Virus record (IMG/VR): IMGVR_UViG_3300006802_000313
Span: 1 to 32,001 of that record
Direction: 5' to 3' (one strand)
DNA length: 32,001 bases
Origin: a virus
Under the pieces are notes generated by a model. That model was not told the DNA's origin and did no database searches. It was given only the letters and a program-made list of their open reading frames with translations. This document shows positions 2-24,966 of this stretch, in pieces. Numbering within the stretch: position 1 is the stretch's first letter; each line of letters opens with the position of its first letter. Both the position numbers and the translations under genes were made by a program.

Positions 2-325
2 GACAAGCGTGATTTGGTGGAGCGCCTGCGGGATGACGCGCAAGGCGAAGACTTGGGCGCGGATGGCGTGGGCTGGAGCCCGGACCCTGCACTGAAGCGA
101 GAGGCAGCCGACGAAATCGAGCGGCTGCGCGCTGAGAACGCGGCGCTCAAGCGCGAGGCGCACACCTGGAGCAAGGCGGCAGAGCACTACGCGAAGCCCC
201 TGCAACCGCTTGACCCGCTGGACGTGGAACAGCTATGGGACGTGGCGAACGCCGACCCATACGCAGACGAGGTGCATCACGAGTTCGCGCGGCTGCTTCA
301 GCGCAAGCTGGGGATTGGGGCCTAA
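2..325 (+). CDS. Partial hypothetical coiled-coil protein of cassette 1
   Basis: The frame is open from the window edge, so the true start may lie outside; TTG (14) and GTG (17) are possible starts inside. A stretch rich in Glu, Arg, Leu and Ala (EIERLRAENAALKREA) looks like a short coiled coil. The C-terminal part is acidic and hydrophilic. Small proteins with this layout are common in phage early regions, but I do not recognise a family. The TAA stop (323-325) is supplied by the R'' core of the attC that follows, as is usual for compact integron cassettes. Function unknown. Confidence 0.6.
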   Translation, partial: DKRDLVERLRDDAQGEDLGADGVGWSPDPALKREAADEIERLRAENAALKREAHTWSKAAEHYAKPLQPLDPLDVEQLWDVANADPYADEVHHEFARLLQRKLGIGA

Positions 326-387
326 CGATCGAAGTAACGCGGGGCCAGCGCTTGCCGCTGGACCTCGTGTTGACTGAGGGGTTGGGC
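320..387 (+). other. attC site 1
   Basis: R'' GCCTAAC (320-326) and R' GTTGGGC (381-387) flank arms around GCCAGCG / CGCTGG with imperfect pairing. R'' supplies the stop of gene 1. The crossover point is the G/TT of R', so cassette 2 begins at 382. Confidence 0.85.
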
Positions 388-874: not shown

Positions 875-974
875 GCCCAACGTTTGAGCTAACCGGACAG
901 ACCCGGCGAGAAAACCATGACAGACGAACAAACGACAAACGCCGGGGCTGGTCCGGTTGAGCGAGGGGTTAGGC
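875..974 (+). other. attC site 2, with a start codon in its loop
   Basis: R'' GCCCAAC (875-881) and R' GTTAGGC (968-974). Left arm GCTAACCGGAC pairs with right arm GTCCGGTTGAGC, leaving one unpaired G on the right. The first bases of cassette 2 (GTTGGGCGTCA) are complementary to its end (TGACGCCCAAC). The loop carries ATG 917, in frame with the next gene. Confidence 0.9.
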
Positions 975-1222
975 CCCGCGCGTGGATGGCGATGCACTGC
1001 GGCAATCCTGCGCAGGCGACCACTGATGAGCCGACCGCGATGCGCTGGCGCAAGGCTGGCGGCGATGTGCGGCCATTGTTCGAGATACCGCAAGACCTGC
1101 CCGACATGATGCTGCGCCAACTGCAACGTGAGCGCGCCATGCTTGCCGGTTTCACGAAGCTTGGCAACGAGATCGCCCGGGCAAAACGCTTGGATGAATG
1201 GATTTCTTGCCTCGGGGCCTAA
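917..1222 (+). CDS. Hypothetical protein of cassette 3, probably starting inside the upstream attC
   Basis: 101 residues from ATG 917 or 78 from ATG 986; neither has a strong ribosome-binding site. I list the longer form because other genes in this array clearly start inside attC loops and read across R' in the same phase (GTT as Val). The first 18 residues, a hydrophilic MTDEQTTN... peptide ending in PVERGV, would then be encoded by attC 2. The cassette-encoded part has a helical region rich in Arg, Leu and Glu (LRQLQRERAMLAGF). TAA at 1220-1222 comes from R'' of attC 3. No family recognised; an unknown phage-type protein. Confidence 0.6.
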   Translation: MTDEQTTNAGAGPVERGVRPRAWMAMHCGNPAQATTDEPTAMRWRKAGGDVRPLFEIPQDLPDMMLRQLQRERAMLAGFTKLGNEIARAKRLDEWISCLGA

Positions 1223-1330: not shown

Positions 1331-1708
1331 ATGGAAGACCTACTCAGAAGCATTCAGCGCGCGACATCGGGCCAGTTCCCGGAGGATTACACAGCGGCCG
1401 ACCTGCTGCGGCTGTTGAGCGATGCTGAAGACGCACTGAAGGTGGCGCAGCCACCTTTGAATGCAGACAGCGCCACTCGCTTTGCAGCCTTTCGGGCCGC
1501 CCTGGATGATCTGTGCACGCGCCACGGCATTCAGCTCACGACGAGCCAATATGACGGCCTGCAAGCGTGGCCGCTGCACGCAGGCGAAACGCCGGTTTAC
1601 TCGGCAGGCTTTGAGAACTGCATTCCAGATGGGCCCAACGTGCCCATGAGCGGACCCCAACGGCCCGCACGAAAGGACGAAGATGGAACAGAACTCACCA
1701 GCCGTTGA
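1331..1708 (+). CDS. Phage-type hypothetical protein of cassette 4
   Basis: 125 residues from ATG 1331, with GGAG (1319-1322) upstream; GTG 1325 is an alternative. The segment around residues 61-83 (CTRHGIQL... YDGLQAWPL) resembles a motif I have seen in small phage proteins (a Cys, then HG, then YDGLQ and WPL); function unknown. The frame does not stop before the attC: it reads through R'' (GGG CCC AAC) and the loop and ends at TGA 1706-1708 in the right half. Its last 25 or so residues are therefore attC-encoded and overlap the start of the next gene (1683) in another frame. Confidence 0.7.
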   Translation: MEDLLRSIQRATSGQFPEDYTAADLLRLLSDAEDALKVAQPPLNADSATRFAAFRAALDDLCTRHGIQLTTSQYDGLQAWPLHAGETPVYSAGFENCIPDGPNVPMSGPQRPARKDEDGTELTSR

Positions 1709-1734
1709 GGGTCCGCTCGATGGGCGTGTTGTGC
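1633..1734 (+). other. attC site 4, overlapped by two reading frames
   Basis: R'' GCCCAAC (1633-1639), R' GTTGTGC (1728-1734). Left GCCCATGAGCGGACC pairs with right GGTCCGCTCGATGGGC, with one extra G on the right. The loop carries a ribosome-binding site (AAAGGA, 1672-1677) and ATG 1683. The previous gene also ends inside the site. Confidence 0.85.
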
Positions 1735-1934
1735 CGCTGGAGCCGGAGCGCGACAGAACATGCGCGCAGGGTTGCAACGGCTGCGACGACTGCACGGACT
1801 ACTGGGACGGCGACGACGGCCCGGAGCGCGACCTGACGTGCACGCACTGCCACGGCACAGGCGGCGACCCGTGGAACGACGGCATTACGCCGTGCGAGCA
1901 CTGCGACGGCGAGGGGTACGAGTGGTGGAACTGA
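1683..1934 (+). CDS. Small DnaJ-type zinc-finger protein of cassette 5
   Basis: 83 residues. Two CxxCxGxG motifs (CTHCHGTG and CEHCDGEG) near residues 57-80 form a DnaJ-like zinc-binding hairpin; an upstream Cys cluster (CAQGCNGCDDC) may bind a second metal. Small phage and bacterial proteins with this motif are usually of unknown function. ATG 1683 has AAAGGA five bases upstream, both inside the loop of attC 4, so residues 1-16 are attC-encoded and the frame crosses R' as GTT GTG. GTG 1731 is a fallback start. The stop overlaps the start of the next frame in the same cassette. Confidence 0.75.
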   Translation: MEQNSPAVEGPLDGRVVPLEPERDRTCAQGCNGCDDCTDYWDGDDGPERDLTCTHCHGTGGDPWNDGITPCEHCDGEGYEWWN

Positions 1935-2194
1935 ACGAGCACGACGCCGCCATTCTGCGGAACACGCGCCGCCGCGTGAACCGGGCGCGCAACTTTCCCG
2001 AGAACACCTGCGCCGCCTCTCGGCACTTGCATCTGATGGCGAACCAACTGGCGAGCGGGCAGCCGTACCCGATGCTGCAGGAAGAGCCGACGCACTGCGC
2101 CATGACGATGCTAGCGGTGCTTGAGTCGCTGTGGAAGGCGCGCACGGAGCTGGCGCGCCTGAAGCGGCACAACTTTGGAGGTAACCGGACATGA
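1922..2194 (+). CDS. Hypothetical helical protein, second gene of cassette 5
   Basis: 90 residues from GTG 1922, which has GAGGGG about 7 bases upstream and overlaps the stop of the preceding gene, suggesting coupled translation; GTG 1925 is also possible. The protein is basic near the N-terminus (NTRRRVNRARNF) and helical at the C-terminus (ESLWKARTELARLKR). No family recognised. The frame enters attC 5 and ends at TGA 2192-2194, overlapping ATG 2191 of the next cassette's gene (ATGA). Confidence 0.55.
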   Translation: MVELNEHDAAILRNTRRRVNRARNFPENTCAASRHLHLMANQLASGQPYPMLQEEPTHCAMTMLAVLESLWKARTELARLKRHNFGGNRT

Positions 2195-2269
2195 CCGGCG
2201 ACACAGAACACACTGAAAGCGGCACTGCGCCGACCGCCGGGCATGGTCCGGTTGACAGACTGGTTGGGC
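2167..2269 (+). other. attC site 5, with ribosome-binding site and start codon
   Basis: R'' GCACAAC (2167-2173), R' GTTGGGC (2263-2269). Arms GTAACCGGAC and GTCCGGTTGAC pair with one extra G. Cassette 5 begins GTTGTGCCGCT and ends AGCGGCACAAC, an 11-base complement with a non-standard core. GGAGGT (2177-2182) lies 8 bases before ATG 2191 within the left arm and loop. Confidence 0.9.
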
Positions 2270-2550
2270 GGCCGGTGGAGCAGCGCGACATTGTTTGCGA
2301 GCTTGAGCGTGCGCTGGCGCGACTGGCGACGGGTGAAGCCATGACCGAAGGCGAGCTTTGGAGCTGGGTGCGCAGCGTGATGTGCCAGGGCGCCGACATT
2401 CGATGCGACTACGAACTGGGCTTGCACAAGGGCTATGAAGCGTACAGCGCCCGGCTTGACATGGCAGCGGCAGAACGCGCAGACCAGATGCTGGCCCGCC
2501 TGAAGACGCCCAACAATCAAGGTGAGCCGGGGGCCACGAAAGATGACTGA
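2191..2550 (+). CDS. Hypothetical protein of cassette 6, started inside attC 5
   Basis: 119 residues. ATG 2191 has the best ribosome-binding site in the array (GGAGGT, 8 bases upstream) and both lie upstream of the crossover point in attC 5, so about the first 26 residues (MTGDTEHTES... ending PVDRLV) are encoded by the upstream site. The body has helices (DIVCELERALARLATGEAMT and DMAAAERADQMLARLK). No family recognised. It reads through R'' of attC 6 and ends at TGA 2548-2550, overlapping ATG 2543 of the next gene by 8 bases. Cassettes 5, 6 and 7 thus look translationally coupled. Confidence 0.7.
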   Translation: MTGDTEHTESGTAPTAGHGPVDRLVGRPVEQRDIVCELERALARLATGEAMTEGELWSWVRSVMCQGADIRCDYELGLHKGYEAYSARLDMAAAERADQMLARLKTPNNQGEPGATKDD

Positions 2551-2593
2551 GAAAACGAAACTCCAACCCCTCGGCTCGACCGCAGGGTTAGGC
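2508..2593 (+). other. attC site 6, with a start codon in its loop
   Basis: R'' GCCCAAC (2508-2514), R' GTTAGGC (2587-2593). Arms GGTGAGCCG and CGGCTCGACC pair with one extra G. Cassette 6 starts GTTGGGCG and ends CGCCCAAC. ATG 2543 lies in the loop. Confidence 0.85.
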
Positions 2594-2872
2594 TTGGAAT
2601 TTGACGAAGCTGACTACCTGAGATTCGACCCTTGCGAGGGCGATGAAGGTGAGATTACTTGCCGAACTGTGAAGCTGGTGCGCGCCAGAAAAGAGCACGC
2701 TTGCTTTATGGGTGCCGGGCACTACGGAGACGGCCACACGATTAAGCCCGGCGACCTGTACCGAAATGAGACGGCGCTGGTGGACGGAGATTTTTGGGGG
2801 CAGTACCGCGTGTGCGTGCCGTGCATGAACAAGTGGCTGCACGAGATACACGGCGATGAAGATGACGCCTAA
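2543..2872 (+). CDS. Hypothetical protein of cassette 7
   Basis: 109 residues from ATG 2543 in the loop of attC 6; there is no ATG between the crossover and the conserved-looking body, although GTG 2522 and TTG 2594 are possible. The body contains KLVRARKEHACFMGAGH, then IKPGD..R.E.. and CVPCMNKWL. The spaced Cys and His residues could bind a metal, and the layout recalls small phage proteins of unknown function. TAA 2870-2872 comes from R'' of attC 7. Unlike the other loop-started genes it crosses R' in a different phase (GGG TTA GGC). Confidence 0.65.
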   Translation: MTEKTKLQPLGSTAGLGLEFDEADYLRFDPCEGDEGEITCRTVKLVRARKEHACFMGAGHYGDGHTIKPGDLYRNETALVDGDFWGQYRVCVPCMNKWLHEIHGDEDDA

Positions 2873-2924
2873 CGTTCGTATTGAGCCGCAGCCGTAGGCT
2901 GTCGGCTCGAATACGGGGTTAGAT
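2867..2924 (+). other. attC site 7 (compact)
   Basis: R'' GCCTAAC (2867-2873), R' GTTAGAT (2918-2924). Left GTATTGAGCCG pairs with right CGGCTCGAATAC with one unpaired G; the inner hairpin contains CCGTAGG. A classic short attC of 58 bases. Confidence 0.95.
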
Positions 2925-5833: not shown

Positions 5834-5954
5834 CCCTAACGCCCGAGCTAACCTGACCGACACAGCGCGATGACCCACCAAGCAACCCAGGACGCACCGA
5901 CCGACGCCCAGCCAAGGCCCGCTGTGGCGGGTCAGGTTGAGCGAAGTGTTAGCC
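5834..5954 (+). other. attC site 10, long loop with start codon
   Basis: R'' CCCTAAC (5834-5840), R' GTTAGCC (5948-5954). Arms GCTAACCTGACC and GGTCAGGTTGAGC pair with one extra G. Cassette 10 begins GTTAGGGCACTTC and ends GAAGTGCCCTAAC, a 13-base exact complement. The roughly 75-base loop carries ATG 5870. Confidence 0.92.
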
Positions 5955-6724
5955 GGCAACCAGCGGCGGCGGCCCTGCCACGGCCGTACTACGAAGACGA
6001 GGCGGTGACCCTGTACCACGGGGACGCACTGGCACTGCTGCCGCTACTGCCCAAGGCTGACGCGGTGGTGACTGACCCGCCTTATGGTGAAACCTCGCTG
6101 GAGTGGGACAAGTGGCCGGATGGCTGGCCCGCGGTGGCTGCGCTGGTGGCGCCGCAGATGTGGTGCTTTGGAAGCATGCGCATGTTCTTGGACAAGCGCG
6201 CCGACCTGGCCGACTGGAAGCTGGCGCAAGACATCGTGTGGGAGAAGCACAACGGAAGCAGCTTTCACGATGACCGCTTCCGTCGCGTGCATGAGTTCGC
6301 GCTGCACTTCTACCGGGGCGACTGGAACGCGCTGCACCGCGAGGTGCCGAGGCATGGCGAGGAACAACGAAAGCAGCGCATCCGGCGCGGTAAGACGCCG
6401 CACCTTGGAACGGTGGGCGCAGAGGCCACGATTGAAGGCCAGCGGATCATGACTTCGGTGATCTTCGCGGCAAGCTGCCACGGCTACGCGGTGAACGAGA
6501 CACAGAAGCCCGAAGACATTGTGGCCCCGCTGCTGCAGTACAGCGTGCCGCCCGGCGGGCTGGTGGTGGACTGCTTCGCAGGCAGTGGCACTACTGGCGC
6601 CGTGGCGCGCAAGACCGGGCGCCGGGCGATCTTGATTGAGAAGCGCGAGTCACAGTGCCAGGCCATCGCGGCGAGGTTGGCACAGGGTGACTTGTTGACG
6701 GCTAACGTAGAAGTAACCGGCTGA
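5870..6724 (+). CDS. Site-specific DNA methyltransferase, beta-class, started inside attC 10
   Basis: 284 residues. TDPPYG (68-73) is catalytic and DCFAGSGTTGAVA near residue 236 binds AdoMet: beta-class order, N6-adenine or N4-cytosine (PF01555). The family normally begins just before the YYEDEAVTLYHGD segment seen here at residues 40-52. The cassette has no ATG upstream of that segment, so the only ATG is 5870 in the attC 10 loop. About 30 residues (MTHQATQD... QVERSV) are then encoded upstream of or at the crossover. The ribosome-binding site is weak. The frame also reads through R'' of attC 11 and stops at 6722-6724. Solitary methylase. Confidence 0.88.
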   Translation: MTHQATQDAPTDAQPRPAVAGQVERSVSRQPAAAALPRPYYEDEAVTLYHGDALALLPLLPKADAVVTDPPYGETSLEWDKWPDGWPAVAALVAPQMWCFGSMRMFLDKRADLADWKLAQDIVWEKHNGSSFHDDRFRRVHEFALHFYRGDWNALHREVPRHGEEQRKQRIRRGKTPHLGTVGAEATIEGQRIMTSVIFAASCHGYAVNETQKPEDIVAPLLQYSVPPGGLVVDCFAGSGTTGAVARKTGRRAILIEKRESQCQAIAARLAQGDLLTANVEVTG

Positions 6725-10692: not shown

Positions 10693-13600
10693 TCAGAGGA
10701 TGTTGCTGCGGGTGATGGGGCCGGCCTCGACGTCGAAGTCGTACACCTTGGTGACAGCGTTGGCGGCGATGTCGGCGGTTTCCGCCTGGCCAATGATGTT
10801 CACCCCGAACGCCGCGCCGTAACTGCCAGGCGCCAAGGTGCCAACCGCGATCCAGTCGACATCGAAGTCGTCCGACGAGCTGCCGCCCAGGTCGAGGCGT
10901 AGCTGGTCTATGGTGCTGCTGGTCCAGTCAGACCCGCCGGCGGTCAGGGCCGTCATGTCCCACTCCAGCACCACCCACTCGCCGGTCAGCGTGGCATCGG
11001 CGATCTCCTTGTAGTAGCTGCCGCTCATGCCGTGGCCGCTCTCGGTGGCATAGAACAGGTGGCCCAGCCAGCCCGACCCGCCGGTGCGCCGCACACGCGC
11101 CCGCACCAAGGTGAAGCCGGCCCCGTAGATGCCAAGGCCAGCCGGCGACGCAATGGCCGGGTTGGCGCCGATGGCCTGCACGTCGATGTACGACGGCTGC
11201 ACGGTGATGGTGGCATCGCTGCCGGCGGCCCAGCTCTCTGCCGAGTTCTGGAAGTTCCAGGCGCGGCCGGCCACGTACTGCGTCTGTCCCGAGTAGGCCG
11301 CCGCGGCCAGGGCGGCAATGCTCTCGATGAGGTCAGCGTCGGCCACCGTCACCGACGCGCTGGCCGACGTGGCGCTGTAGTTGCCGCTGGTGTCGTAGTG
11401 GCGCAGATAGCGGGTGACGCCACCCACCGAGCTGACCGGCTCCGACCAGTCCGACGCCGTGCCGCGCCACAGCGGCGGCGTGGCCGGGTTGCCCCAGCCT
11501 GAGTTCGCGCTGCGCACCTCGCTGTGCGAGTAGTCCACCTCGGCCGATGGCGTCCAGGCCCAGACGATGCGGCCCTTGCTGATGGTGCCGCTGAAGCTGC
11601 TGGGCACGGCCGGCGCCGCGGTCTTGCCCACCACGGTGTGGGTGGCCGTGTCTGACGCCCCGCGGAAGCCCAGCGCATTCTGCGCCCAGGCCTCGATCAC
11701 CAGGCGGTCACCGTCCACCACGCCGGTCAGGTAGGTGCCGCCGTCGTCTGCGGCGGCCACGGTCTGCTGCCAGTCGACATCGGGCCCCACCCGCCGCCAG
11801 CGCACCACCACCCTGGCCTGGCCGTCTTGCAGGTACGCGCCGGTCAGCGCAGACCAAGACACCCAGACGCGCGTGCTGATGGTGCCGTCGCCAGCGGCCA
11901 CCAGGTGGTTGGTGCCGCTCTCCGGCGTGCCCAGGGTGATGGCTTCCACCAGCCACGGGCTGGGCAGCCCAGTGTTGGGCGTGGGGTCGGCGTCGACAGC
12001 GTCGACGGTGTCGTAGGCGTCGGCCGCGTCCTCCTGCAGGCGCAGCGTGACAGGCGACAGCAGGCCAAACTGCCAGTCCGTCACCCTGAAGGTCTTGGCG
12101 CTCCAGCCGTACTCGGTGCTGGTCACCGTCACGCGGTCGCCCACCTGCAGCGGCCAGGCGCGCAGCTTGGCCGGGTAGGTGATCACCAGGCCGTTGCGGC
12201 CCCGCTCGACCAGCACGCGGGCGATGTTGGTGCAGCCCGATGCGGTGTTGGTGTAGGGCAGCGCCACGTCTTGCCAGTAGGGCTCGCCGTCGGCGGTGAC
12301 GAAGGTGCTGTTCTGGTAGGGAGGGAAGTCGCTGCCGGTGGCGCTGGTGCTGGCCACGTAGGTGCCGCGCACGCCGTTGACCAGCTCGTCGATGCCGGCC
12401 CCAGCCTGCACCACCTCGATCTGGCCGACCAGGTCGTCATCGGTCAGCGCCATCACCGGCGACGACCAGGCGCCGGCCATCATCTGCCACTGCGCGCCGT
12501 ACACCGCGAAGCCGGCCATGCTGTCGGCCAGGTCGTCCAGCACCTGCTCGCGCGACAGCTCGGTGGTGGCCACGCCGTTGCACCGGTACATGGCCAGCGT
12601 CACGTCAGGTGCGCCGCCGATGCTGACGTTGTAGGTGACGTCGCAGGCATTGGCCGCGGCGATGGTGTAGGCGTCGTCGACGTCGGCGTCGTCTGCCGCC
12701 ATGCCGTACTCGCCCACGATCCAGTCGCGCACGGCCAGCGCCGGGTTGTCACTCCAGGCCCAGGTGCTGGGGTCGTCGGCGCGGTGGCTGCCGCTGCCGC
12801 CGTTGGTGCTGTCCAGCCGCGGGTCATACAGGCGCTTGCCCTTGACGGTGGCGGTGATGTTGGGCGGCCCGGCCTGAAACCGCGGGTCCTCGAGGTCCAG
12901 CGTGACCACGATGTAGGCGATGCCGCGCAGGCGGTGCGTGCTGTCCCACTCGGTGGGCTTCACGCTGTTGAGGTAGGTGTCGACCGTCTGGCTGTCGGTG
13001 CCCAGGTGCTTCTGCACGCGGATGACTGCGGGGTTCACGGCGGCCCTGTAGACCACCGTCACCGGTTCAGACCCGAGGCCATCGGTCACCGTCAGCGTGA
13101 GCCCGCCGCCGCTGATGGCCACGGTGCGGTCCACGTCGTAGGTGTTGTTGTTGCCGCCCAGCGTGGTGGCGCTGACGATCGAGGTGGCCGGGGTCGTCAG
13201 CGACGTGCTGCTGGAGAACGTGACGGTGACCAGCCGCTCGGCCACGCCGGTGGTCCAGTCGGCGCTGGTGCTGTAGCCGCTGCCGTCCAGCGTGCCCAGG
13301 CTGACGCCGTCCACGTAGATCGTGCCAATGCTTTCCACCTGGTGGCTGGCCAGCATGATGACCAGGTGCTTCAGCCCGTCGGGCTTGGTGCCGGCCGCGC
13401 CTGATGCGCTGACGGTGGTCTTGTCGCTGCTGAAGATGGCCACGATGTCGCCACCGGTGATGCACTCGCCGTAAACGATGCGCCAGGGCGGCGTGGCGCG
13501 CAGCGCGGTGATGCTGCGGTCGACGACCGAGGCGTTGTACCGGCGCGTGGCGTCACGCGCGGCGGCCTTGGCGCGGCGCCGTGCGTCGATGCCACCGTAG

Positions 13601-13800
13601 ATGTTGGCCGCCAGCAGCACGTAGCCGCCGTAGGTGGCCACCGCACCCACCACCAGGGCCGCGGTGCCGGTGAAGCCCAGCGCCACGCCCGCGGCAATCA
13701 ACCCGATGGGGTCGGCGCGGGCGGTTGCCGGGCACAGCACGGCCACCGCGGCCGCTGCGGCCACCAGGCGCGGGGCAAAGCGCGGCCAGCGGCGCATCAT
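10693..13800 (-). CDS. gpJ-like tail tip / host-specificity protein
   Basis: 1035 residues from ATG 13800, which overlaps the previous stop (ATGA). A hydrophobic N-terminal region (about 10-65, including IGLIAAGVALGFTGTAALV) precedes a basic segment and the WRIVYGECITGGDIV motif typical of gpJ-family proteins (a G-x-V/YG turn after the hydrophobic part). The large middle part (about 110-640) is the tail-hub region. A fibronectin type III-like domain follows (about 715-820), then a beta-sandwich with WNFQNSAESW (about 850-980), which may bind a surface glycan. It sits at the tail tip and determines host contact. The AxA-like N-terminus resembles a signal peptide but the region is usual in this family. 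Confidence 0.85.
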   Translation of the reverse strand: MMRRWPRFAPRLVAAAAAVAVLCPATARADPIGLIAAGVALGFTGTAALVVGAVATYGGYVLLAANIYGGIDARRRAKAAARDATRRYNASVVDRSITALRATPPWRIVYGECITGGDIVAIFSSDKTTVSASGAAGTKPDGLKHLVIMLASHQVESIGTIYVDGVSLGTLDGSGYSTSADWTTGVAERLVTVTFSSSTSLTTPATSIVSATTLGGNNNTYDVDRTVAISGGGLTLTVTDGLGSEPVTVVYRAAVNPAVIRVQKHLGTDSQTVDTYLNSVKPTEWDSTHRLRGIAYIVVTLDLEDPRFQAGPPNITATVKGKRLYDPRLDSTNGGSGSHRADDPSTWAWSDNPALAVRDWIVGEYGMAADDADVDDAYTIAAANACDVTYNVSIGGAPDVTLAMYRCNGVATTELSREQVLDDLADSMAGFAVYGAQWQMMAGAWSSPVMALTDDDLVGQIEVVQAGAGIDELVNGVRGTYVASTSATGSDFPPYQNSTFVTADGEPYWQDVALPYTNTASGCTNIARVLVERGRNGLVITYPAKLRAWPLQVGDRVTVTSTEYGWSAKTFRVTDWQFGLLSPVTLRLQEDAADAYDTVDAVDADPTPNTGLPSPWLVEAITLGTPESGTNHLVAAGDGTISTRVWVSWSALTGAYLQDGQARVVVRWRRVGPDVDWQQTVAAADDGGTYLTGVVDGDRLVIEAWAQNALGFRGASDTATHTVVGKTAAPAVPSSFSGTISKGRIVWAWTPSAEVDYSHSEVRSANSGWGNPATPPLWRGTASDWSEPVSSVGGVTRYLRHYDTSGNYSATSASASVTVADADLIESIAALAAAAYSGQTQYVAGRAWNFQNSAESWAAGSDATITVQPSYIDVQAIGANPAIASPAGLGIYGAGFTLVRARVRRTGGSGWLGHLFYATESGHGMSGSYYKEIADATLTGEWVVLEWDMTALTAGGSDWTSSTIDQLRLDLGGSSSDDFDVDWIAVGTLAPGSYGAAFGVNIIGQAETADIAANAVTKVYDFDVEAGPITRSNIL

Positions 13801-14207
13801 GCAGCCCCCACGCGCCACGCCACCGACGCGGCGGCCATCGGCACATGCTGCGGCCCCTCGTGGCCCAGCAGCACCGCCGTGCGGCCGGCGCAGATGCCCA
13901 CCGCCTGCCTAGCGGGCCAGTGCAGCCCCACCACCAGCACCAGGTCGCCCGGCCGGGCCTGGCTGCCAGCCAGCGGCGCGCGGTGCAGCGCGCGGGTCAC
14001 CGCCTCGCGCAACGAGCCGCCGCGCCGCGCAATGTGGCGCTGGGCCTCGAGCGCGCCAGATGCGCCAGGTGCAGCGGGGCCGGCGCCCTCCACCTCGCGC
14101 ACCCAGGCGGCCGCGAACTGGCAGCAGTTGTGGCGCTGCCAGTCGAATGCCGGGCAGCGGCGCAAGTAGTCGTCCAGCCGTGATGGGATGCTTTGTGCCA
14201 TGGTCAT
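13797..14207 (-). CDS. DUF6950-like protein of the tail-tip region
   Basis: 136 residues; ATG 14207 overlaps the previous stop (ATGA), and ATG 14201 is possible. RHNCCQFAAAWVREVEG (about residues 23-39) carries a Cys in the place of the NlpC/P60-type nucleophile, and a GDLVLV segment about 45 residues before the end and a VGICAGR segment follow, as in DUF6950 proteins found upstream of gpJ. In related tails this position holds a peptidoglycan peptidase used during entry. Whether this one is catalytic is not clear, because the His partner is not obvious. Confidence 0.65.
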   Translation of the reverse strand: MTMAQSIPSRLDDYLRRCPAFDWQRHNCCQFAAAWVREVEGAGPAAPGASGALEAQRHIARRGGSLREAVTRALHRAPLAGSQARPGDLVLVVGLHWPARQAVGICAGRTAVLLGHEGPQHVPMAAASVAWRVGAA

Positions 14208-14797
14208 CGCTGCTGGAAGGCCTTGCTCAGCCACACGGCCGGGGTGTCGATCAGAGCCTGCACGTACTGCAGGCCGTTGTCGCCGGCGAACCGCAGCACC
14301 TGCTGCTGGTGGGTGTGGCGCAGGCCGGTGCCGGCGCGCGCCCGGTTGGCGCCGGACCTGGCGCACACCAGCTCGATGGCGCCGCCGCTGGCACCCTCGC
14401 CAGCCGTGCGGCGCACGCGCACGCGGTCCATGTAGCCGGCCCACAGCGCCACCGGTGCGCCGGCCGGCTGGTAGGTGTCGCCGACCATCTGCAGGTAGAT
14501 GCGGGCGCGCCGGCCGCGGTAGCCCTCGGCGCTGGCGATCGACGCCGCCAGCAGCGCCTGCGACACCACCGACAGTGACAGCACGACGTCGCCGTTGGCG
14601 CCGTCTTCGGCCTCGCGCAGGCCTTCCACGCCGACCAGGTCGCCGTAGGCCAGCCAGGTGTAGCCCAGCGCGGTGATGGGCACGGCGTTGGTGGTGTAGC
14701 GCAGCATGCCCGACGCGAAGTCGAGCTCGACCAGGTAGTGCGCGCCGGCCACCGTGGCGGCGGCCGCGGCCAGTGCGGTGCTGTCCAGCGTCCTCAT
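14204..14797 (-). CDS. Distal tail / hub-region protein
   Basis: 197 residues. It begins MRTLDSTALAAAAATVAGAH and continues YLVELDFASGMLRYTTNAVPITALGYTWLA (shown here in part), a pattern of tail proteins that start with a short helix and then strands ending in a W- or Y-containing turn. ATG 14797 overlaps the previous stop by 4 bases. Its place between the Dit-like and DUF6950-like genes is conserved in related siphoviruses. Probable role in joining tail tube to tip; no enzymatic motif. Confidence 0.6.
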   Translation of the reverse strand: MRTLDSTALAAAAATVAGAHYLVELDFASGMLRYTTNAVPITALGYTWLAYGDLVGVEGLREAEDGANGDVVLSLSVVSQALLAASIASAEGYRGRRARIYLQMVGDTYQPAGAPVALWAGYMDRVRVRRTAGEGASGGAIELVCARSGANRARAGTGLRHTHQQQVLRFAGDNGLQYVQALIDTPAVWLSKAFQQR

Positions 14798-15873
14798 TCC
14801 TGCCAGGTCTCCAGCAGGTCGAGCGCCAAGCCCGACGTCACGCCGCCGCTCTGCATGTACTGCCAGCTGGTGGCGTCGCCCTGGTGGCGCAGGTACACCA
14901 GCGGCTTGTCCCAGGCGACAGCCGTAGCACTGGCGATGCTGGCGCGCGTGGGGGGCTCGATGCTCACGGTCATGGCGCCGGCCTCGTTCGCCGAGGCGTC
15001 ACCGACCACCATGCAGAAGTGGCTGCCAATGCCTGTGCCGATCTGCAGCCAGTCGCCATCCAGCAGCGTGGCCACGCCCGCCAGCTCGGTCGCAGTCGGC
15101 CCGAGCTCGAGCTGCGCGCCCCAGGCGGTGCACCCATGCGCACCGCCGCTGAGAAACGCACACGGGTACACCCGAACATTCACGCAGCTGGCCGGCACTG
15201 TGAAGGTCACCGACATGCGCACCCAGTCGATCAGATTAATGCTGCTGTAGTAGCTGGTTGCCGCGACGATGTCGGCGTTGTTGGTGTCGTCATAGACGCG
15301 ATATGCCACAGCAGTGTCTGCTGATCGTTTGGCGTACCAGCTGAAGGTGTACTGAGCGCCGGGCGTCACACTCTTGTACTGGAATACACCCGAAAACGAT
15401 GTTGCCTGCAGCGTGTCGGCTGACAGGGTTCCATCCGGCGCCGTGGCCGTGTTCGCGGTCACGGTCGCGTTGCTCTTTGTCCAGGCAGCGTTGTCGAACT
15501 GGAACGGGTAGCGCAGCAGGTTCTTGCCCGGGTAACAGCCAGACATGACGATCGAGGTGGCGCCGGCTGCAGCCGTGGCGCTGAGCACAGGGCTGCCACG
15601 CAGCGTGCCGCGCGGCTGGGGCCGGGCCTTGTCCCAGGCCGCCAGCACGTTGGCCCGGCCGCGCAGCTTGGCCACCAGCGCCTGCCAGCGGCCGGCCTCG
15701 GCCGGCGACAACCACGCGGGCTGGATCAGGCTCATGGTCCAGCGCGGCGGGGCCAGCAGGCGCACCTGCTGGCTGCCCGTGCTGTCGCTGGTGCCCACCA
15801 GGTCATAGCGCTGCTGGCCCATGCCGCTGCCGACACCGACCCGCAGATCCTCGGGCAGGGTGATGATGGTCAT
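14794..15873 (-). CDS. Distal tail protein with an inserted carbohydrate-binding-like domain
   Basis: 359 residues. Residues 1-115 and about 266-359 together look like a phage tail protein family I know (W-x-A/S...L.PAEA..W.ALVA.LRG...P.GT..GSPV, later LLDGDWLQIG and a final GLALDLLE). Between the two halves is a segment of about 150 residues starting NLLRYPFQFDNAAWTKSNAT, with repeated aromatic residues and Thr and Ala-rich strands, resembling carbohydrate-binding modules of phage tails. The inserted part is visibly less GC-rich than its flanks (about 15080-15520). Likely role: tail-tip baseplate with an added glycan-binding module. Confidence 0.65.
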   Translation of the reverse strand: MTIITLPEDLRVGVGSGMGQQRYDLVGTSDSTGSQQVRLLAPPRWTMSLIQPAWLSPAEAGRWQALVAKLRGRANVLAAWDKARPQPRGTLRGSPVLSATAAAGATSIVMSGCYPGKNLLRYPFQFDNAAWTKSNATVTANTATAPDGTLSADTLQATSFSGVFQYKSVTPGAQYTFSWYAKRSADTAVAYRVYDDTNNADIVAATSYYSSINLIDWVRMSVTFTVPASCVNVRVYPCAFLSGGAHGCTAWGAQLELGPTATELAGVATLLDGDWLQIGTGIGSHFCMVVGDASANEAGAMTVSIEPPTRASIASATAVAWDKPLVYLRHQGDATSWQYMQSGGVTSGLALDLLETWQE

Positions 15874-17957
15874 ACAACCCGCCTGTCACGCAAGGTTTGC
15901 CACATGTCGGCCTGGCTCTTCTGCAGTGCCGCCGCCACCAGCTGCGCCACCTGCGCCTGGTCAGACCTGGCGTCGATGCGGATGCTGGGGGCCAGGGTGA
16001 TCTGCAGCTGCTGGCCACCGATGGCGTGGTTGGGGATGACGGTGCCGGCCTGCCGGCCCATGCGCAGGATCTCGGGGCCGCGCTCGCCCACCAGGTAGGC
16101 CTCGCCCGGCATCACGTCGCCGCCCATGGCGCGCTGGCCGGCCAGGCCCGCCACGGCGTTGTAGTCGCCGAAGCCGGTACCGCCTGCCAGCAGGCTGGCC
16201 GGCGTGCCGCCGAACAGGCTGCCCAGGCCGCTGAGCAGCCCGCCGAACAGATTGGCGCCGCCGCTGCCGGATGCCGGCCCAAACACGGCCGTGAGCATGG
16301 CGTCGGCCAGGCTGGCGCTGACCCGCTGAAACACGATGTTGCCCAGCGCGTCGCCGAAGGCCTTGATGGGGTTCTTGCTGTCGCGGAAGGCGGCGGCCAG
16401 CGCGTCGCGGGTTTCTTCGCGCGTGACCAGGGCGGTGTCCTTGGCGAACTTCTGCGCCGTGGCCGCCCGCTTGGCCTGCACCGCCGCGTCGGCCGCGGCC
16501 TCGGCATCCACCCGGGCCGGGCTGTTGCCGTAGATGGCCTCGATCTGCGCCTGCAGGCGCTTGCGCTCCAGCGTGATCTGCGCCTGGGCGCGCTGCTGGT
16601 CGTCGACGATCAGCGCCAGGTTGGCGTCCTCGTTGGCCTGCACCAGATCGGCCAGCAGCTTCTCCTGCGCCTCGCGGCGCTTGCGGATGCCCACGTCGGC
16701 CGCGGCGTTGACGGCCTCGGTGCTGGCCAGCTCGCTCTGGCGCAGGTCGCGGAAGTTGATCTCGTACTCGGGCCCGACCAGCAGCCCGAGCGGGTTGTAG
16801 TTCATCAGGCTGGGGTCTTTGGCCGGCCGGCCACCACGCGCACGCTCAGCCTCGCGCAGCGCCTGGATCTTGGCGCGCTCGCGGGCGGCCGATTCCGATA
16901 CCGCGATGGCGTTGGTCGACTCACGGTCGGCCATGCGGATCAGTCGCAGCTGCTCGTCACGCAATGCCTGCCGCTGGGCGTTGATGGCCGCCAGGCGCTC
17001 TGCCGACACCATCGAGTTCGGTCCGCCGGGCAAGTTGGCGTCAAACGCTGCCAGCTGCCGCGTGACCGACTCCAGCAGCTCCTTGGTCGTCTTTTCGCGG
17101 CCGATGCCCAGCATGAACTGCCAGGCTTCGCTGGCAGCTTTGCCGACCTTGACCCACGCCGACTCCAGCGTGCCAAGCTGCTCAGCCTGCGCCTTGTGCT
17201 GCTCGACCACCCGCTCGCTGACAAAGATTGCCGCCTCTTCAGCCTTGCCCTGGTCCTGCAGGCGCTTGATGTAGGCGTACTGCTCGGCCGTGATGAAGTT
17301 CCAGGCCTTGTTGTGCTCGGCTGCCCAGTCGGCGACGTTGGCGCCCATGCGGGCAAAGTCCTTGGCCACCTCGGCCGCGCTGCGCCCGCTGACGTCGGCC
17401 ACGCGCTGGGCGGCCAGGGCCATGCTCTCCAGCACGCCGGCGCTGACGGTGCCCTCGGCGGCCAGGGCCAGCACGATGTCACGGGCGCCGCCCACGCTGG
17501 CGCGGCTGCCGGCGGCCACCCGCCCGGCCAGGTCCTGCAGGCGGTCAGCCGTCAGGCCCGCCGCGTTGCCGGTCAGGGCCAGGGTGTCGCGCAGCTTGTT
17601 GGCGTCGCGCTCAGCGGCCACCAGCACGCCCGCCAGCGCGGCCAGGCCAGCCACACCCAGCGTGGCCGGGCTGATCAGGCTGCCGATGCCGCGCAGCGCG
17701 GCGCCGATGCTGCCGAACTGGTCACGCACCTGGCCGCCCTGCTGCAGCAGGATCAGCAGCGGGTTCTGGCCGCCGGCCAGCTGCGTGGCCACGTCAGTGA
17801 ACTGGGCCGGCAGGCTGCGCATGGCGGCCTTGATCTGGCCGGCGCTGACGTCGCCCGCCTGGCCCACCTTGCCGATGGCCGTGGCGGCCTGGGCGGCGGC
17901 CTGGTTGTGCTGGACAGCGTCCAGCCGCAGGACGGTGACGGCCTCGTTGCGGATCAC
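15870..17957 (-). CDS. Tail tape measure protein, lambda gpH type
   Basis: 695 residues from GTG 17957, which has GGAGG upstream. The N-terminal SLPAQFTDVATQLAGGQNP (48-66) and LLILLQQGGQVRDQFG (67-82) match the beginning of lambda-type tape measure proteins (PF06791). Hydrophobic segment 96-115, long helical middle with many Ala, Glu and Arg, then a Gly-rich C-terminal region with GEAYLVGERGPEI and VIPNHAIGG, a signature of this family. It sets tail length and is ejected during infection. By the usual rule of about 0.15 nm per residue the tail would be near 100 nm, an estimate only. Confidence 0.92.
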   Translation of the reverse strand: MIRNEAVTVLRLDAVQHNQAAAQAATAIGKVGQAGDVSAGQIKAAMRSLPAQFTDVATQLAGGQNPLLILLQQGGQVRDQFGSIGAALRGIGSLISPATLGVAGLAALAGVLVAAERDANKLRDTLALTGNAAGLTADRLQDLAGRVAAGSRASVGGARDIVLALAAEGTVSAGVLESMALAAQRVADVSGRSAAEVAKDFARMGANVADWAAEHNKAWNFITAEQYAYIKRLQDQGKAEEAAIFVSERVVEQHKAQAEQLGTLESAWVKVGKAASEAWQFMLGIGREKTTKELLESVTRQLAAFDANLPGGPNSMVSAERLAAINAQRQALRDEQLRLIRMADRESTNAIAVSESAARERAKIQALREAERARGGRPAKDPSLMNYNPLGLLVGPEYEINFRDLRQSELASTEAVNAAADVGIRKRREAQEKLLADLVQANEDANLALIVDDQQRAQAQITLERKRLQAQIEAIYGNSPARVDAEAAADAAVQAKRAATAQKFAKDTALVTREETRDALAAAFRDSKNPIKAFGDALGNIVFQRVSASLADAMLTAVFGPASGSGGANLFGGLLSGLGSLFGGTPASLLAGGTGFGDYNAVAGLAGQRAMGGDVMPGEAYLVGERGPEILRMGRQAGTVIPNHAIGGQQLQITLAPSIRIDARSDQAQVAQLVAAALQKSQADMWQTLRDRRVV

Positions 17958-17973
17958 GCGCGCACCTCCACGG

Positions 17974-18309
17974 TCAGCCCTTGCGGTGCCAGGCGATGAG
18001 CTCGCGCTCCATCACCCGCAGGTTGTCGAATGCCAGCGCGGCCTGCTTGGGCTTGAAGCCCAGCCGCTGCTCGACCACCGGCAGCGCGGTGTAGTCGAAG
18101 CCCTCCACACCCTTTAAGCTGTAGCGCAGCTGCGTCTGCATCGCGGCAAATAGCCGCACGGCGGGCCAGTTCTCGGCCCACACGTCCAGCGGCGCCGGCT
18201 CGGTGCTGCCCATGTCGGGCAGCGCCAGGCCGAAGGCATGCGCAGCAGCCTCGAGCTCGGGGCCGGCTGCCTGCGTGGGGCCTTGCAGCACCGCGCGGGC
18301 AGCCGCCAT
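17974..18309 (-). CDS. Tail assembly chaperone, downstream (GT-like) part
   Basis: 111 residues from ATG 18309, or fused to the upstream chaperone by -1 frameshifting at 18312-18318. Its frame is open at the slip site, so the fusion product would read G-K-L-M-A-A. The sequence (DMGSTEPAPLDVWAENW, TQLRYSLKGVEGFDYTALP, LAFDNLRVMERELIAWH) is of the DUF1799 type, which lies between tail chaperone and tape measure in many phages. It would act in folding or loading the tape measure protein before tail assembly and not remain in the virion. Confidence 0.75.
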   Translation of the reverse strand: MAAARAVLQGPTQAAGPELEAAAHAFGLALPDMGSTEPAPLDVWAENWPAVRLFAAMQTQLRYSLKGVEGFDYTALPVVEQRLGFKPKQAALAFDNLRVMERELIAWHRKG

Positions 18310-18671
18310 CAGTTTCCCGCGCGTGCATGGCCGAGCTGCTGCGCATAGCGGCGCACGATCTCGGCGCCGGCGGCCGGGAAGGCCTGGATCAGCTGGGCCA
18401 GGTTGGCCGGCGTGTACGGCAGCGGCTTGCTGTCGGCGCCCACCACGCCGATCCAGCCGTCGACCACCTCGGCCACGTAGGCCGCGAACTGCTCCTGGGC
18501 GTCGGGCGCATCGGCCTGCATGGCCACATCGACAGCACGCGCCTGGTAGGCGGCCAGCTCGGCGCGGTTCTTGTGCTTGAAGGTGATCTTGATGCTGATG
18601 GATTTGTCGCTGCCAGGCACCGACAGCGGCACATCACACGTGAAGGTGGGGTTGGGGACGATGCAAAACAT
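18309..18671 (-). CDS. Tail assembly chaperone, upstream (G-like) part
   Basis: 120 residues from ATG 18671; the longer open frame to 18698 overlaps the tail tube gene and lacks support. After an MFCIVPNPTFTCDVPLSVPG start there is ISIKITFKHKNRAELAAYQA, a beta-then-helix pattern typical of phage tail chaperones, and a helical C-terminal half (AQEQFAAYVAEVVDGWIGV). It ends GGA AAC TGA, so the slippery heptamer is the last sense sequence. Position between tail tube and tape measure supports the role. Confidence 0.75.
   Translation of the reverse strand: MFCIVPNPTFTCDVPLSVPGSDKSISIKITFKHKNRAELAAYQARAVDVAMQADAPDAQEQFAAYVAEVVDGWIGVVGADSKPLPYTPANLAQLIQAFPAAGAEIVRRYAQQLGHARAGN
18312..18318 (-). other. 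Probable -1 ribosomal frameshift site (G GGA AAC)
   Basis: On the - strand the heptamer GGGAAAC is in the correct register (GCG GGA AAC TGA) for tandem slippage to GGG AAA. It is the last sense codons of the upstream chaperone, and the -1 frame runs straight into the downstream chaperone. Tail chaperone pairs joined this way are known from lambda gpG/gpGT and many siphoviruses. Confidence 0.75.
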
Positions 18672-18694
18672 GGCGCCGATGAGTGCTGGTGCAA

Positions 18695-19672
18695 TCACCG
18701 CGACACGATGCGCAGCTCGTCATTGCCCGAGGTGGGCAGCAGGCGCAGCGCATAGGTGTGCAGGGCGTTGCCGTTCAGGTCTTCGACGCCAGGGTTGATG
18801 CGCTGGATCTTGGGCGCATGCAGCACCACGGTGTTGCCGGCGCTGGTGCCGTGCGTCAGGCCCATGCCGGTGGTGGTGTTGGCCAGCACGTCCGACATGG
18901 CCGTCACGGCCTGGGCGGCGGTCAGGTCCAGGCTGATGCTGCCGGTGGGCTCGCGCTGGGTCAGCTCGACGGTCTCGGCGCCCAGCAGCGGCTGGAAGAC
19001 CACATTGTTGGCAACGTCGATGCGCACCCCGCGGCTGGTGAACGACGAGCCGCCGCTGAGCACACCGGTGGATGCGGTGTAGGTCAGGCTGCCCAGCGTC
19101 AGATCGCCGCTGTTGGTGTCGGTGACGATCAGGGGCGTGCGCCAGGCGGTCAGCGTGGGCGTCGCGTTGGCGGCAGCCGTCAGGCCGCCGTTCTTGCCGA
19201 TGAAGCGGAACCGCAGCACCGGCTTCTCGCCGATGGCCGCCTCGATGCTGAAGGTGCCCCGCGCGCCCAGCAGCTTGTGCAGCTGGCCGTCGAGGTAGTA
19301 GTAGATCGTCAGCGAGGTGTTGGTCACGCCACTGATGCTGCTGATGGGCGTGTAGTCGACGCTTGCGGTTTGCGTGGTCTCGGCGAAGCCGCAGGCCTTG
19401 AGCAGCTTGCCCCAGGCCGGCGCCGTGGTGGGCGTGCCGCTGCCGGCCAGCTCGACGTCGAAGCTGCACTCGACGTAGGCGGTGCCGACCAGCTGCTCAG
19501 AGCTGCCCAGGTAGCCGATGACGTTGGCGCGGTCGACGTTGTTGGCCACCAGCGGGTTGATGCTCTGGTTGCTGATGAGCAGGGCATCGGTGCCGCCGAC
19601 GGGCGACGAATCGGTGCCGTAGGTGGTCTCGAGCTTGGCGAGGATGACGGTATTGCGGATCGGGCGGCCCAT
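18695..19672 (-). CDS. Major tail tube protein
   Basis: 325 residues. The start MGRPIRNTVILAKLETTYGT and the segments SSEQLVGTAYVECSFDVELAGSG and LLKACGFAE (given in part) follow the pattern of siphovirus tail tube proteins with a beta-barrel fold, and later GSISLDLTAAQAVTAMSD and TYALRLLPTSGNDELRIV are typical of the C-terminal domain. It polymerises as hexameric rings around the tape measure protein. ATG 19672 is the first start after the gpU-like gene; a 30-base gap separates them. Rather long, so an extra Ig-like domain is possible. Confidence 0.8.
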   Translation of the reverse strand: MGRPIRNTVILAKLETTYGTDSSPVGGTDALLISNQSINPLVANNVDRANVIGYLGSSEQLVGTAYVECSFDVELAGSGTPTTAPAWGKLLKACGFAETTQTASVDYTPISSISGVTNTSLTIYYYLDGQLHKLLGARGTFSIEAAIGEKPVLRFRFIGKNGGLTAAANATPTLTAWRTPLIVTDTNSGDLTLGSLTYTASTGVLSGGSSFTSRGVRIDVANNVVFQPLLGAETVELTQREPTGSISLDLTAAQAVTAMSDVLANTTTGMGLTHGTSAGNTVVLHAPKIQRINPGVEDLNGNALHTYALRLLPTSGNDELRIVSR

Positions 19673-19702
19673 GGTGGTGGTCTCCGGTGCGGTGTTGCGG
19701 GG

Positions 19703-20146
19703 TCAGGCGGCCAGCGCCAGGCTGCCGGGGGCGGTGCGAAGGGACACGGTGAGCAGGAACTGCCAGGCCGCCACGGGCGTGGCCGCCTCCAGCACGTCCA
19801 GCTGGCCGCGGAAGGCCTGCAGGCCAACGATGCCGGCGGGCAGCGACATGGCCGTCAGGCGGGCGTACACCTGCTCCATGATGGGATCAATGGCCGCCAG
19901 GGCGTCGATGGCATCGGTGCCGCGGGCGCGGATCTCGACGCCGACATCGACGGTCCAGTCGGTGGGCCCTGCGGTCAGCGTGAACGGCGCGCCGTCCGGC
20001 ACCTGCAGGGTGATGTTGACGTCGCTGGCCTGGTCGAGCGCGGTGGTGGTGTCACGGCCAACGGCGACGCGGCCACCAGCGACAGCAGGCGACGCCAGCA
20101 GCGCCGCGCTGACGGTGTCGATCAGGGTCTTGAAGGCGGTGGTCAT
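19703..20146 (-). CDS. Tail terminator, gpU-like
   Basis: 147 residues. An N-terminal helix (TAFKTLIDTVSAALLASPAVA), then alternating strands (VNITLQVPDGAPFTLTAGPT, DWTVDVGVEIRARG), then a helix (DAIDALAAIDPIMEQVYARL) and final strands, the layout of lambda gpU-like tail terminators. ATG 20146 overlaps the previous stop (ATGA). Located between the head-tail joining gene and the tail tube gene, as expected. The protein caps the growing tail tube and joins it to the head. Confidence 0.65.
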   Translation of the reverse strand: MTTAFKTLIDTVSAALLASPAVAGGRVAVGRDTTTALDQASDVNITLQVPDGAPFTLTAGPTDWTVDVGVEIRARGTDAIDALAAIDPIMEQVYARLTAMSLPAGIVGLQAFRGQLDVLEAATPVAAWQFLLTVSLRTAPGSLALAA

Positions 20147-20430
20147 GCGGCCACCTCGGTCAGGCTGAGCAGGCTCAGGCCGGTGCCGTCAGGCTGGTGC
20201 TCACGCACCTTGTACGTGCCAGCGCCGCGGCCGGTGCTGATGATCAGCGTGGCGCTCTTGTAGGCCGCCGGCACGCTGGCCGTGGCGATCTGCACCTGGG
20301 GGGCCTCGATCGTCATGCCGTTGGACACGCCGCCAGGGCCGTCGAAGATCACGCGCACGGCATCGCCGGCCAACGTGGCCGCGTCGCCGAAGTCGGCGAA
20401 ATAGGGCGTGAGATCTTCGGTGAAGGCCAC
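20143..20430 (-). CDS. Head-tail joining protein, FII-like
   Basis: 95 residues. The beginning MAFTEDLTPYFADFGDAATL, with AVRVIFDGPG, and the later APQVQIATASVPA, then GAGTYKVREHQPDGTGLSLL, follow the pattern of lambda gpFII-like proteins (FADFG, then a VIFD turn, a paired strand domain and a final aromatic or hydrophobic strand). These attach to the portal complex and accept the tail. Position directly before gpU supports this. Confidence 0.65.
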   Translation of the reverse strand: MAFTEDLTPYFADFGDAATLAGDAVRVIFDGPGGVSNGMTIEAPQVQIATASVPAAYKSATLIISTGRGAGTYKVREHQPDGTGLSLLSLTEVAA

Positions 20431-20449
20431 GGCTGCTGCTCGGCTGAGA

Positions 20450-20701
20450 TCAGGCCTCGACCTTGGCGGTCTTCTTCAGGGCAGCGCGGATGGCGGCCAC
20501 CTGCTCGCTGCTGGCCGTCCAGCGGCCGGGCGCGTTGCCGCGGGTGGTGGGGTCGTCCTTGGGCTCGACATACAGGCCCTTGCCAGACTCCACCACGCCG
20601 CGCGCCGATGCAGTCTCGAGCTCGACCAGGCTGTGGGCCGGCAGGAAGGTGGGCCCGTCCATCGACGGGGCGAACGTGTCTTGGGTGACGATGAGCTTCA
20701 T
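20450..20701 (-). CDS. Small head-region hypothetical protein
   Basis: 83 residues from ATG 20701. The first half (MKLIVTQDTFAPSMDGPTFL) is strand-like and the second ends in a Lys and Ala-rich helix (SSEQVAAIRAALKKTAKVEA). It lies between the capsid gene and the FII-like gene, where other phages have a small head-completion or decoration protein. No known motif. An in-frame start at 20731 would extend into the spacer with a Pro and Cys-rich peptide and is unlikely. Confidence 0.6.
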   Translation of the reverse strand: MKLIVTQDTFAPSMDGPTFLPAHSLVELETASARGVVESGKGLYVEPKDDPTTRGNAPGRWTASSEQVAAIRAALKKTAKVEA

Positions 20702-20768
20702 GGTGCAGTCGGGTGATGGTGGCGGGCACAACCCGGGGCCCAGCGGGCCCCAGGTTGCGGGCGGCGCA

Positions 20769-22733: not shown

Positions 22734-22743
22734 GGTGTGGCTC

Positions 22744-24402: not shown

Positions 24403-24468
24403 GCTGCGCAGGATGCCCAGCGGGGCGGAACTTGCGGCGGCCAGTTGTTCCGGTGCGGTTTCTATCCG

Positions 24469-24489
24469 CACCTATGGGGGATGGGATCA
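24469..24489 (-). repeat. Inter-gene ribosome-binding repeat, copy A
   Basis: Identical over 21 bases to copy B (24715-24735). It starts with the TGA stop of the 24487 gene and ends in AGGTG upstream of the portal gene. Copy A lacks the short-spaced ATG found after copies B and C. Confidence 0.85.
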
Positions 24490-24708
24490 GGCGGGCGAGG
24501 CCGACACGGTTGCCACCGTCACGGTCCACTTCTTGTCGCCGCCTTCAATCTCGAAGGTGCCGCCGTGGAAATCGGCCTTCTCAATCACTGCGCGCAGGAC
24601 ATCGCTGGTCACGTCTCGCTTTTCACCGATGAAGGCATAGCCGGCTTTGTTGACGCGCCCTTGAAGAATGCGGCCGGTCAGCGGGGAGCATGCAATGCGA
24701 GTGGTCAT
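24487..24708 (-). CDS. Small hypothetical protein of the pre-portal cluster
   Basis: 73 residues from ATG 24708, which has AGGTG 7 bases upstream inside repeat copy B; an earlier start at 24717 is less likely. The sequence begins MTTRIACSPLTGRILQGRVN and contains a Gly-flanked strand turn (GGTFEIEGGDKKWTVTVATV). No catalytic motif or membrane segment. It lies in a group of three small genes separated by the same repeat. Possible moron (accessory gene) of the late operon. Confidence 0.55.
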   Translation of the reverse strand: MTTRIACSPLTGRILQGRVNKAGYAFIGEKRDVTSDVLRAVIEKADFHGGTFEIEGGDKKWTVTVATVSASPA

Positions 24709-24714
24709 GGGTGT

Positions 24715-24735
24715 CACCTATGGGGGATGGGATCA
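24715..24735 (-). repeat. Inter-gene ribosome-binding repeat, copy B
   Basis: Contains the stop of the 24733 gene and the AGGTG that serves ATG 24708. Identical to copy A and closely similar to copy C (24973-24992). On the - strand it reads TGATCCCATCCCCCATAGGT then GACACCCATG. Confidence 0.85.
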
Positions 24736-24966
24736 GGTGGCAAGCCGCTCAGCGATTGCCAGCGTGCGCTCTACCCATGCGTTATGGGCATAGAGGTCAA
24801 CCTTTGCGCAGGGGGCGGCATGGTTGGTTGCATGCACGCACCGCTTGTCCCCGCAGTGCGGGCACACGATCATCTCGGACAGCATGCGCGGCATTCCGTG
24901 CACGGTTTCGCCGCGCTCCTTGATGCAGCGCCGGCAGTCGCAGGGCTGTTCGGTCGGGTCGGTCAT
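24733..24966 (-). CDS. Small Cys-rich zinc-finger-like protein
   Basis: 77 residues from ATG 24966, preceded by AGGTG from repeat copy C. Cys pairs are CDCRRC near the N-terminus and CPHCGDKRC in the middle, with a further Cys and His residues (HATNHAAPC) after, so one or two zinc sites are likely. Short helices follow (NAWVERTLAIAERL). No known family; phage small zinc-ribbon proteins of this size are common and of unknown role. Member of the repeat-separated trio upstream of the portal. Confidence 0.6.
   Translation of the reverse strand: MTDPTEQPCDCRRCIKERGETVHGMPRMLSEMIVCPHCGDKRCVHATNHAAPCAKVDLYAHNAWVERTLAIAERLAT

Follow-up and report, generated by a model that had tools for sequence, protein, structure and literature searches.

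The window, by which we mean the whole 32,001-base stretch of the virus record IMGVR_UViG_3300006802_000313 analyzed here, is bacteriophage DNA by its terminase, portal, major capsid and tail genes. The morphogenesis genes (tail fibre, tape measure, major head, portal, and large and small terminase) lie on the minus strand at 10693..31948. A cassette array with attC-like sites occupies the plus strand from position 1 to about 8,080 and was assigned to the phage genome because of these morphogenesis genes. The integron integrase domain PF13495, the sole domain searched, is absent from the record, which may be incomplete; with at least two attCs and no integron integrase nearby, the array is a CALIN. 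Megablast searches for relatives of the morphogenesis genes of the window or of the arrays L009 and L011 (L numbers are our own sequence labels) found no isolated phage.

The usual view of an attC is of a non-coding 3' tail that makes the next cassette harder to translate. The sites in the window are attCs by their paired R''/R' boxes (RYYYAAC/GTTRRRY) and L''/L' arms with spacers, and two boxes deviate from the consensus by one base, R'' at 2167 (GCACAAC) and R' at 1728 (GTTGTGC). Bottom-strand DNA of all six sites tested folds into a hairpin with an unpaired centre and extrahelical bases; in the five sites with a long apex, the fold consists of an R-stem, the unpaired centre and an L-stem with a single-base bulge. 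The fold energy beats that of shuffled sequences at 875, 1633, 2167 and 2867 and does not at 2508 and 5834. The corresponding z-scores are -2.9 (875), -6.0 (1633) and -3.7 (2167), with weak values of -1.25 at 2508 and -0.31 at 5834. The observed junctions fit a crossover at R', and from them we infer recombination by an integrase.

Five attCs of the array (875, 1633, 2167, 2508 and 5834) carry an ATG from which the reading frame stays open across L' and R' and enters the next gene, and we refer to them as start-donating. Between this ATG and the gene body of the next cassette they hold a leader of 14-26 codons. In the remaining attCs of the window the apex is short and palindromic or a start is lacking, and the genes after them mostly have their own RBS; examples are the short-apex site at 320..387, followed by a gene at 417 with its own RBS and ATG, and the ordinary short site at 2867..2924, followed by a gene at 2950 with its own RBS. 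All features of the array described here are on the plus strand. In the site at 875..974, ATG 917 is located in a 31-nt unpaired apical loop and reads in frame 0 through R' (968-974); the ORF begun there (917..1222; MTDEQTTNAGAGPVERGV, then RPRAW...) also contains ATGs at 986 and 992 as possible internal starts. The site at 1633..1734 bears AAGGA and ATG 1683, in frame 0 through its R' (GTTGTGC). It opens an ORF (1683..1934) for a small zinc-ribbon-like protein with a weak match to the DnaJ CXXCXGXG motif, under the Pfam cut-off. The same cassette has a second ORF (1922..2194) with a GTG start; its true start is uncertain, the frame being open also from ATG 1760, and its TGA stop overlaps the next start as ATGA inside the following attC. 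This attC (2167..2269) has GGAGG in the R''-L'' spacer (2177-2181), ATG 2191 and a crossover R' of GTTGGGC (2263-2269), and starts the ORF 2191..2550 (MTGDTEHTESGTAPTAGHGPVDRL, then VGRPVEQ...) in frame 0; a homologous attC start precedes another gene in L065. The site at 2508..2593 combines a weak SD and a weak bottom-strand fold with ATG 2543, which reads in frame +2 through R' (GTTAGGC, 2587-2593) into the ORF 2543..2872 (MTEKTKLQPLGSTAG, then LGLEFDE...), overlapping the upstream stop by 8 nt. The last one, at 5834..5954, has ATG 5870 in frame 0 and starts a DNA methyltransferase (N6_N4_Mtase; 5870..6724). No 4-base SD match was found ahead of the ATG at 875, 2508 and 5834.

The first-pass annotation of this DNA had described translational coupling of neighbouring cassettes at 1915-2600. 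The three ORFs concerned (1922-2194, 2191-2550 and 2543-2872) are all present, as are the ATGA overlap (2191-2194) inside the attC-like site 2167-2269 and the 8-base overlap (ATGACTGA, 2543-2550) inside the attC-like site 2508-2593. The feature extends beyond that interval, the attCs at 875-974, 1633-1734 and 5834-5954 behaving alike. The accompanying argument that recombination would break the overlap proved wrong. The attC belongs to the preceding cassette, so that the stop of gene n and the start of gene n+1 are on one cassette; the crossover at R' (GTT) falls 72 nt after the start codon 2191 and 44 nt after 2543, and since stop and start both lie upstream of R', they travel together in recombination. 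What the R' crossover separates is the start codon and leader, in the attC, from the body of gene n+1, in the next cassette.

Arrays for comparison came from viral contigs scanned with attC half-site patterns and from one scan of bacterial genomes. Among 243 attCs in 69 viral array loci, 52 had an SD and ATG with a frame running at least 25 codons past R', compared with 0 in reversed sequence; 52/243 is not an estimate of prevalence, because this enlarged set includes loci picked by a start-containing pattern. In long apices of viral attCs, an SD with an ATG occurred in 41/111 on the sense strand versus 3/111 on the antisense strand (Fisher 3e-11), and the frame ran for at least 40 codons past R' in 29 of these 41, versus 24/82 for the other two frames of the same sites (Mann-Whitney 2.5e-5), counts that overstate independence because attC families are related to one another. 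Starts with their own RBS were more common after short attCs (38/59) than after read-through attCs (9/29; p=0.006). Single-linkage grouping merged the attCs into two groups through their shared arms, and the family count derived from it was set aside.

The reading frame is restricted. Read-through starts with SD and ATG comprise 33 in frame 0, with GTT in phase, 16 in frame +2 and 0 in the third frame. A frame-free pattern scan, counted over sites with an attC, gave 14, 5 and 0, with all 19 frames open through R' and 16 of them for at least 40 codons. The attC arms themselves close the third frame, with a TGA in L' (GGTTGA) and a TAG in R' (GTTAG), and the two open readings of L'-R' are ..GTT GAG CGA xGG GTT AGG and ..CGG TTG AGC GAA GGG TTA GGC. 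Nearly all leaders have between 10 and 29 codons, and despite this variation in length they keep to these two phases. The leader residues are not conserved, and a codon-position test for selection on the leader peptide saw none: 22 changes were synonymous and 109 non-synonymous, and because the changes fall about equally on all three codon positions, the leader looks like a linker.

Stronger evidence than these counts comes from attCs and gene bodies that have changed partners. L011 and L012 contain attCs with 96-99% identity to the one at 5834, while the genes flanking these sites on either side align no better than the random baseline; the three downstream genes differ, and all three are in frame 0. 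Other pairs likewise share an attC with unrelated genes on both sides (L343/L347, L336/L347, L083/L119, L002/L107 and L323/L357), the identity of the shared attCs across pairs being 91-99%. As the genes on both sides are unrelated, it is the attC alone that is shared and not a cassette together with its attC. The reverse also occurs: over the 150 nt after R', the window methyltransferase body shows 83-88% identity to those of L020 and L021, whereas the three attCs in front of it, each start-bearing, are unrelated; all three joints are in frame 0. A second cassette body is found behind differing attCs in L010 and L011.

These exchanges run against a stable or selected order as the main explanation of the overlaps, as first proposed, since one start-bearing attC stands before different genes and one body behind different attCs. 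The original proposal was said to fail if the cassettes turned up elsewhere in another order and with other starts; the methyltransferase cassette is literally such a case, and it speaks against a stable order and for a modified form of the alternative offered with it, a stop-start module in the attC able to couple any neighbours. The start part of that module (SD, ATG and leader codons) does stand before different neighbours. The stop part held less well. Among 51 sites, the upstream stop and the attC start overlap exactly as ATGA in 7 and are within about 10 nt of each other in 15; in 36 the stop is more than 10 nt away, often in R'', which makes the stop-start overlap a sub-feature. Stop-start coupling thus applies to a minority of sites, including the two first noticed. 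The mode of coupling needs the same amendment, because the outcome read from the open frames would be an in-frame N-terminal fusion across the crossover and not only reinitiation. We also considered a self-consistent circular-cassette scheme, in which each start-less cassette would have a start in its own attC; the window does not bear it out, since the 1683 and 2191 cassettes fit it and those of 2543 and 5870 do not.

Some gene bodies appear to have lost their native start. In the window methyltransferase, no ATG, GTG or TTG occurs between R' and the conserved PYYEDEAVTLYHGD. Free-standing homologues (L023, L025, L026, L030 and L031) begin with M(K/N)PYYQDD, their start being directly before the conserved PYY motif, and the CDS of an annotated Mycobacterium prophage homologue starts three codons before the residue that matches P39 of the window ORF. 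The codon at this start position is CTG in the window and L020 and TTG in L021, and no ATG or GTG is found from R' to the motif. For this reason the methyltransferase body appears to have lost its own start and to rely on the attC, unless a near-cognate codon is used. Start loss is also possible in the PAPS-reductase-like cassette of L009: two relatives have annotated starts that coincide with the R' codon or follow it closely, but here a GTG a few codons after R' is an alternative. Against start donation, the CTG, the TTG of L021 and the GTG of L009, all downstream of R', could act as weak starts.

In the predicted mRNA, R'' pairs with R' and L'' with L', leaving the SD-ATG region in or near the apical loop. 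The mean predicted unpaired probability is highest at the ATG, 0.70, versus 0.22-0.28 in the arms. According to the account in PMC8876359, attC hairpins in mRNA hinder ribosomes, and short ORFs within attC can relieve this by termination-reinitiation. A start placed in the apex would be a more radical solution to the attC hairpin than such reinitiation ORFs.

We consider it probable that a sub-class of attCs in integrase-less phage arrays donates a start codon and an N-terminal leader to the gene of the next cassette. Read from the sequence, this draws on the anatomy of the sites, their frame restriction and enrichment, the reuse of attCs and of gene bodies, the decay of native starts and the predicted accessibility of the start. 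In the proposed mechanism, the apex between L'' and L' would carry the translation-initiation region (SD, ATG and leader codons), and ribosomes would initiate there. Translation would run through the crossover box into the next cassette, L'/R' being open in two of three frames, and the next gene body, often without its own start, would receive its start codon and N-terminal leader from the attC. The joints may have been made, or could be remade, by a host integron integrase. The presumed benefit is a start that recombination cannot disrupt and the attC hairpin does not block, and in a minority of sites the ATGA overlap would add termination-reinitiation coupling.

The apex might instead encode a short peptide that ends near R' and keeps ribosomes moving, the next gene reinitiating at its own start, as is known for ORF-11 of attI1 and for short ORFs within attC in the account of PMC8876359. 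Such sites seem to occur: at 4946-5040 of L011, a leader with SD and ATG, read in the third frame, is ended by the TAG of R', and the next gene has its own RBS, an apparently ORF-11-like arrangement within an attC that a few third-frame sites fit, and a frame-0 ORF of the window ends 2 bases before ATG 1331. As an account of the main class this is nevertheless unlikely. There the frame crosses R' and continues for a median of 76 codons, where an ORF-11-type leader would end near R' and leave initiation to the cassette gene's own start, and bodies such as the methyltransferase have no ATG or GTG start after R' (a TTG in L021 only).

Less likely still is ordinary compact gene overlap in a frozen array, where the places at which stops and starts overlap would coincide with attC relics only by accident. 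Compact phage genomes often have ATGA overlaps, the record has no integrase, and 15 of the 51 sites do have a stop within about 10 nt. Most starts are nevertheless not near an upstream stop. One attC can precede unrelated genes and one gene can follow unrelated attCs, the frame being kept each time, and because of this reshuffling of attCs and gene bodies a frozen order with incidental overlaps was rejected. Chance open frames in GC-rich DNA, with coincidental apex ATGs and true starts downstream, are the least credible account. Two of three frames are open through L'-R' in any case, and one repeated attC family in the bacterial arrays sampled also has AAGG..ATG, but these bacterial ATGs do not read into genes, 3/23 reaching at least 40 codons past R' versus 29/41 in the viral set, and the sense/antisense and reversed-sequence controls also argue against chance.

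Start donation by the attC has partial precedents. ORF-11 in attI1 of class 1 integrons (Hanau-Bercot et al. 2002, as presented in PMC8876359) likewise has an SD and start in a recombination site upstream of the crossover and a frame that crosses it, and it also helps cassettes without their own initiation region (PMC8876359). In that account ORF-11 ends at a stop from the GTTAG core of the cassette, acts by reinitiation and concerns only attI1 and the first cassette (PMC8876359), whereas in the phage arrays the start is in the attC, could serve any cassette, and its frame continues as the protein N-terminus. The short attC ORFs of Jacquier et al. 2009 (in section 3.2 of PMC8876359) share translation begun inside attC that helps the downstream cassette, with ATGA-type coupling; as described there they end and the next cassette uses its own start (PMC8876359), whereas here the frame is open through R' and the own start may be lost. 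Phage-borne attC clusters with methyltransferase cassettes and no integrase were reported by Qi et al. 2023 (PMC9892861), and some of those attCs recombine with attI1; the abstract and section 3.4 of that paper make no mention of start codons in attC (PMC9892861). Fused cassettes such as blaGES-1/aacA4 also link translation across a cassette boundary, but that fusion arises by loss of the attC (PMC4670013), whereas here the attC is intact and itself start-bearing. A full-text literature search, with subscription papers and preprints outside its scope, found no description of an attC-encoded start becoming the N-terminus of the next cassette. Relative to ORF-11 in attI1 and the reinitiating short ORFs in attC, which are known already, the apparent novelty is an attC frame that becomes the downstream N-terminus.

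A large terminase was present in 14 of 26 records tested (25 related viral records and the window), 4 of the GpA and 10 of the Terminase_6N family; these two terminase families are unrelated, so more than one phage lineage is involved. None of 14 bacterial genomes with similar attC halves (0/14) had a start-donating attC. Among 401 genomes of one bacterial family, 11 matched a loose start pattern, and two of these (L271 and L278, both small pieces) look real by inspection and are possibly prophage or viral sequence. On these figures, bacterial chromosomal integrons were rejected as the source; specific half-site patterns were used to select both the genomes and the viral sequences, and the absences hold for those samples. 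Of the phages in Qi et al. 2023, Tetrasphaera phage TJE1 has short attCs only, none with a start, and MW202573 yielded no confident attC with the detector used.

We further regard it as fairly probable that phages evolved start-donor attCs whose apex is a universal RBS-start-linker adaptor of fixed frame, joined by recombination to a start-less body. If the sites work in this way, a start codon and a gene body on opposite sides of a crossover, kept compatible by a frame convention, would form a natural portable expression adaptor. Integron-type recombination would then amount to N-terminal protein fusion, and the attC hairpin would turn from a hindrance to ribosomes into their landing site. 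It would suggest how the cassettes of long arrays, which are promoter-less and separated by hairpins, come to be translated, and would account for the start-less genes in phage arrays that gene callers annotate wrongly. Synthetic biology would gain a natural precedent for protein-coding attC linkers.

Several further features of the cassettes were observed. Self-starting cassettes share near-identical 5' leaders right after R' (for example GGCTGGTGAACGAAGGCACGAAAGGATG) while their genes differ (L001, L003, L072 and L102; L011 and L047; L040), as if leader and attC formed a frame into which genes swap. Start-less bodies often open with codons reading LEPER (CTGGAGCCGGAGCG), at 1735-1752 of the window and in L006, L355 and L078; these codons look like the decayed SD leader of a once self-starting cassette. 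Four methyltransferase cassettes lie at 2950-6724 of the window, two N6/N4, one C5 that matches only the N-terminal half of its family, and one related to phrog_56, which suggests an anti-restriction cargo. In the methyltransferase ORF at 4813-5829, a 14-residue unit (KLPHLGDAGRGVNR) occurs three times in tandem at 5278-5400.
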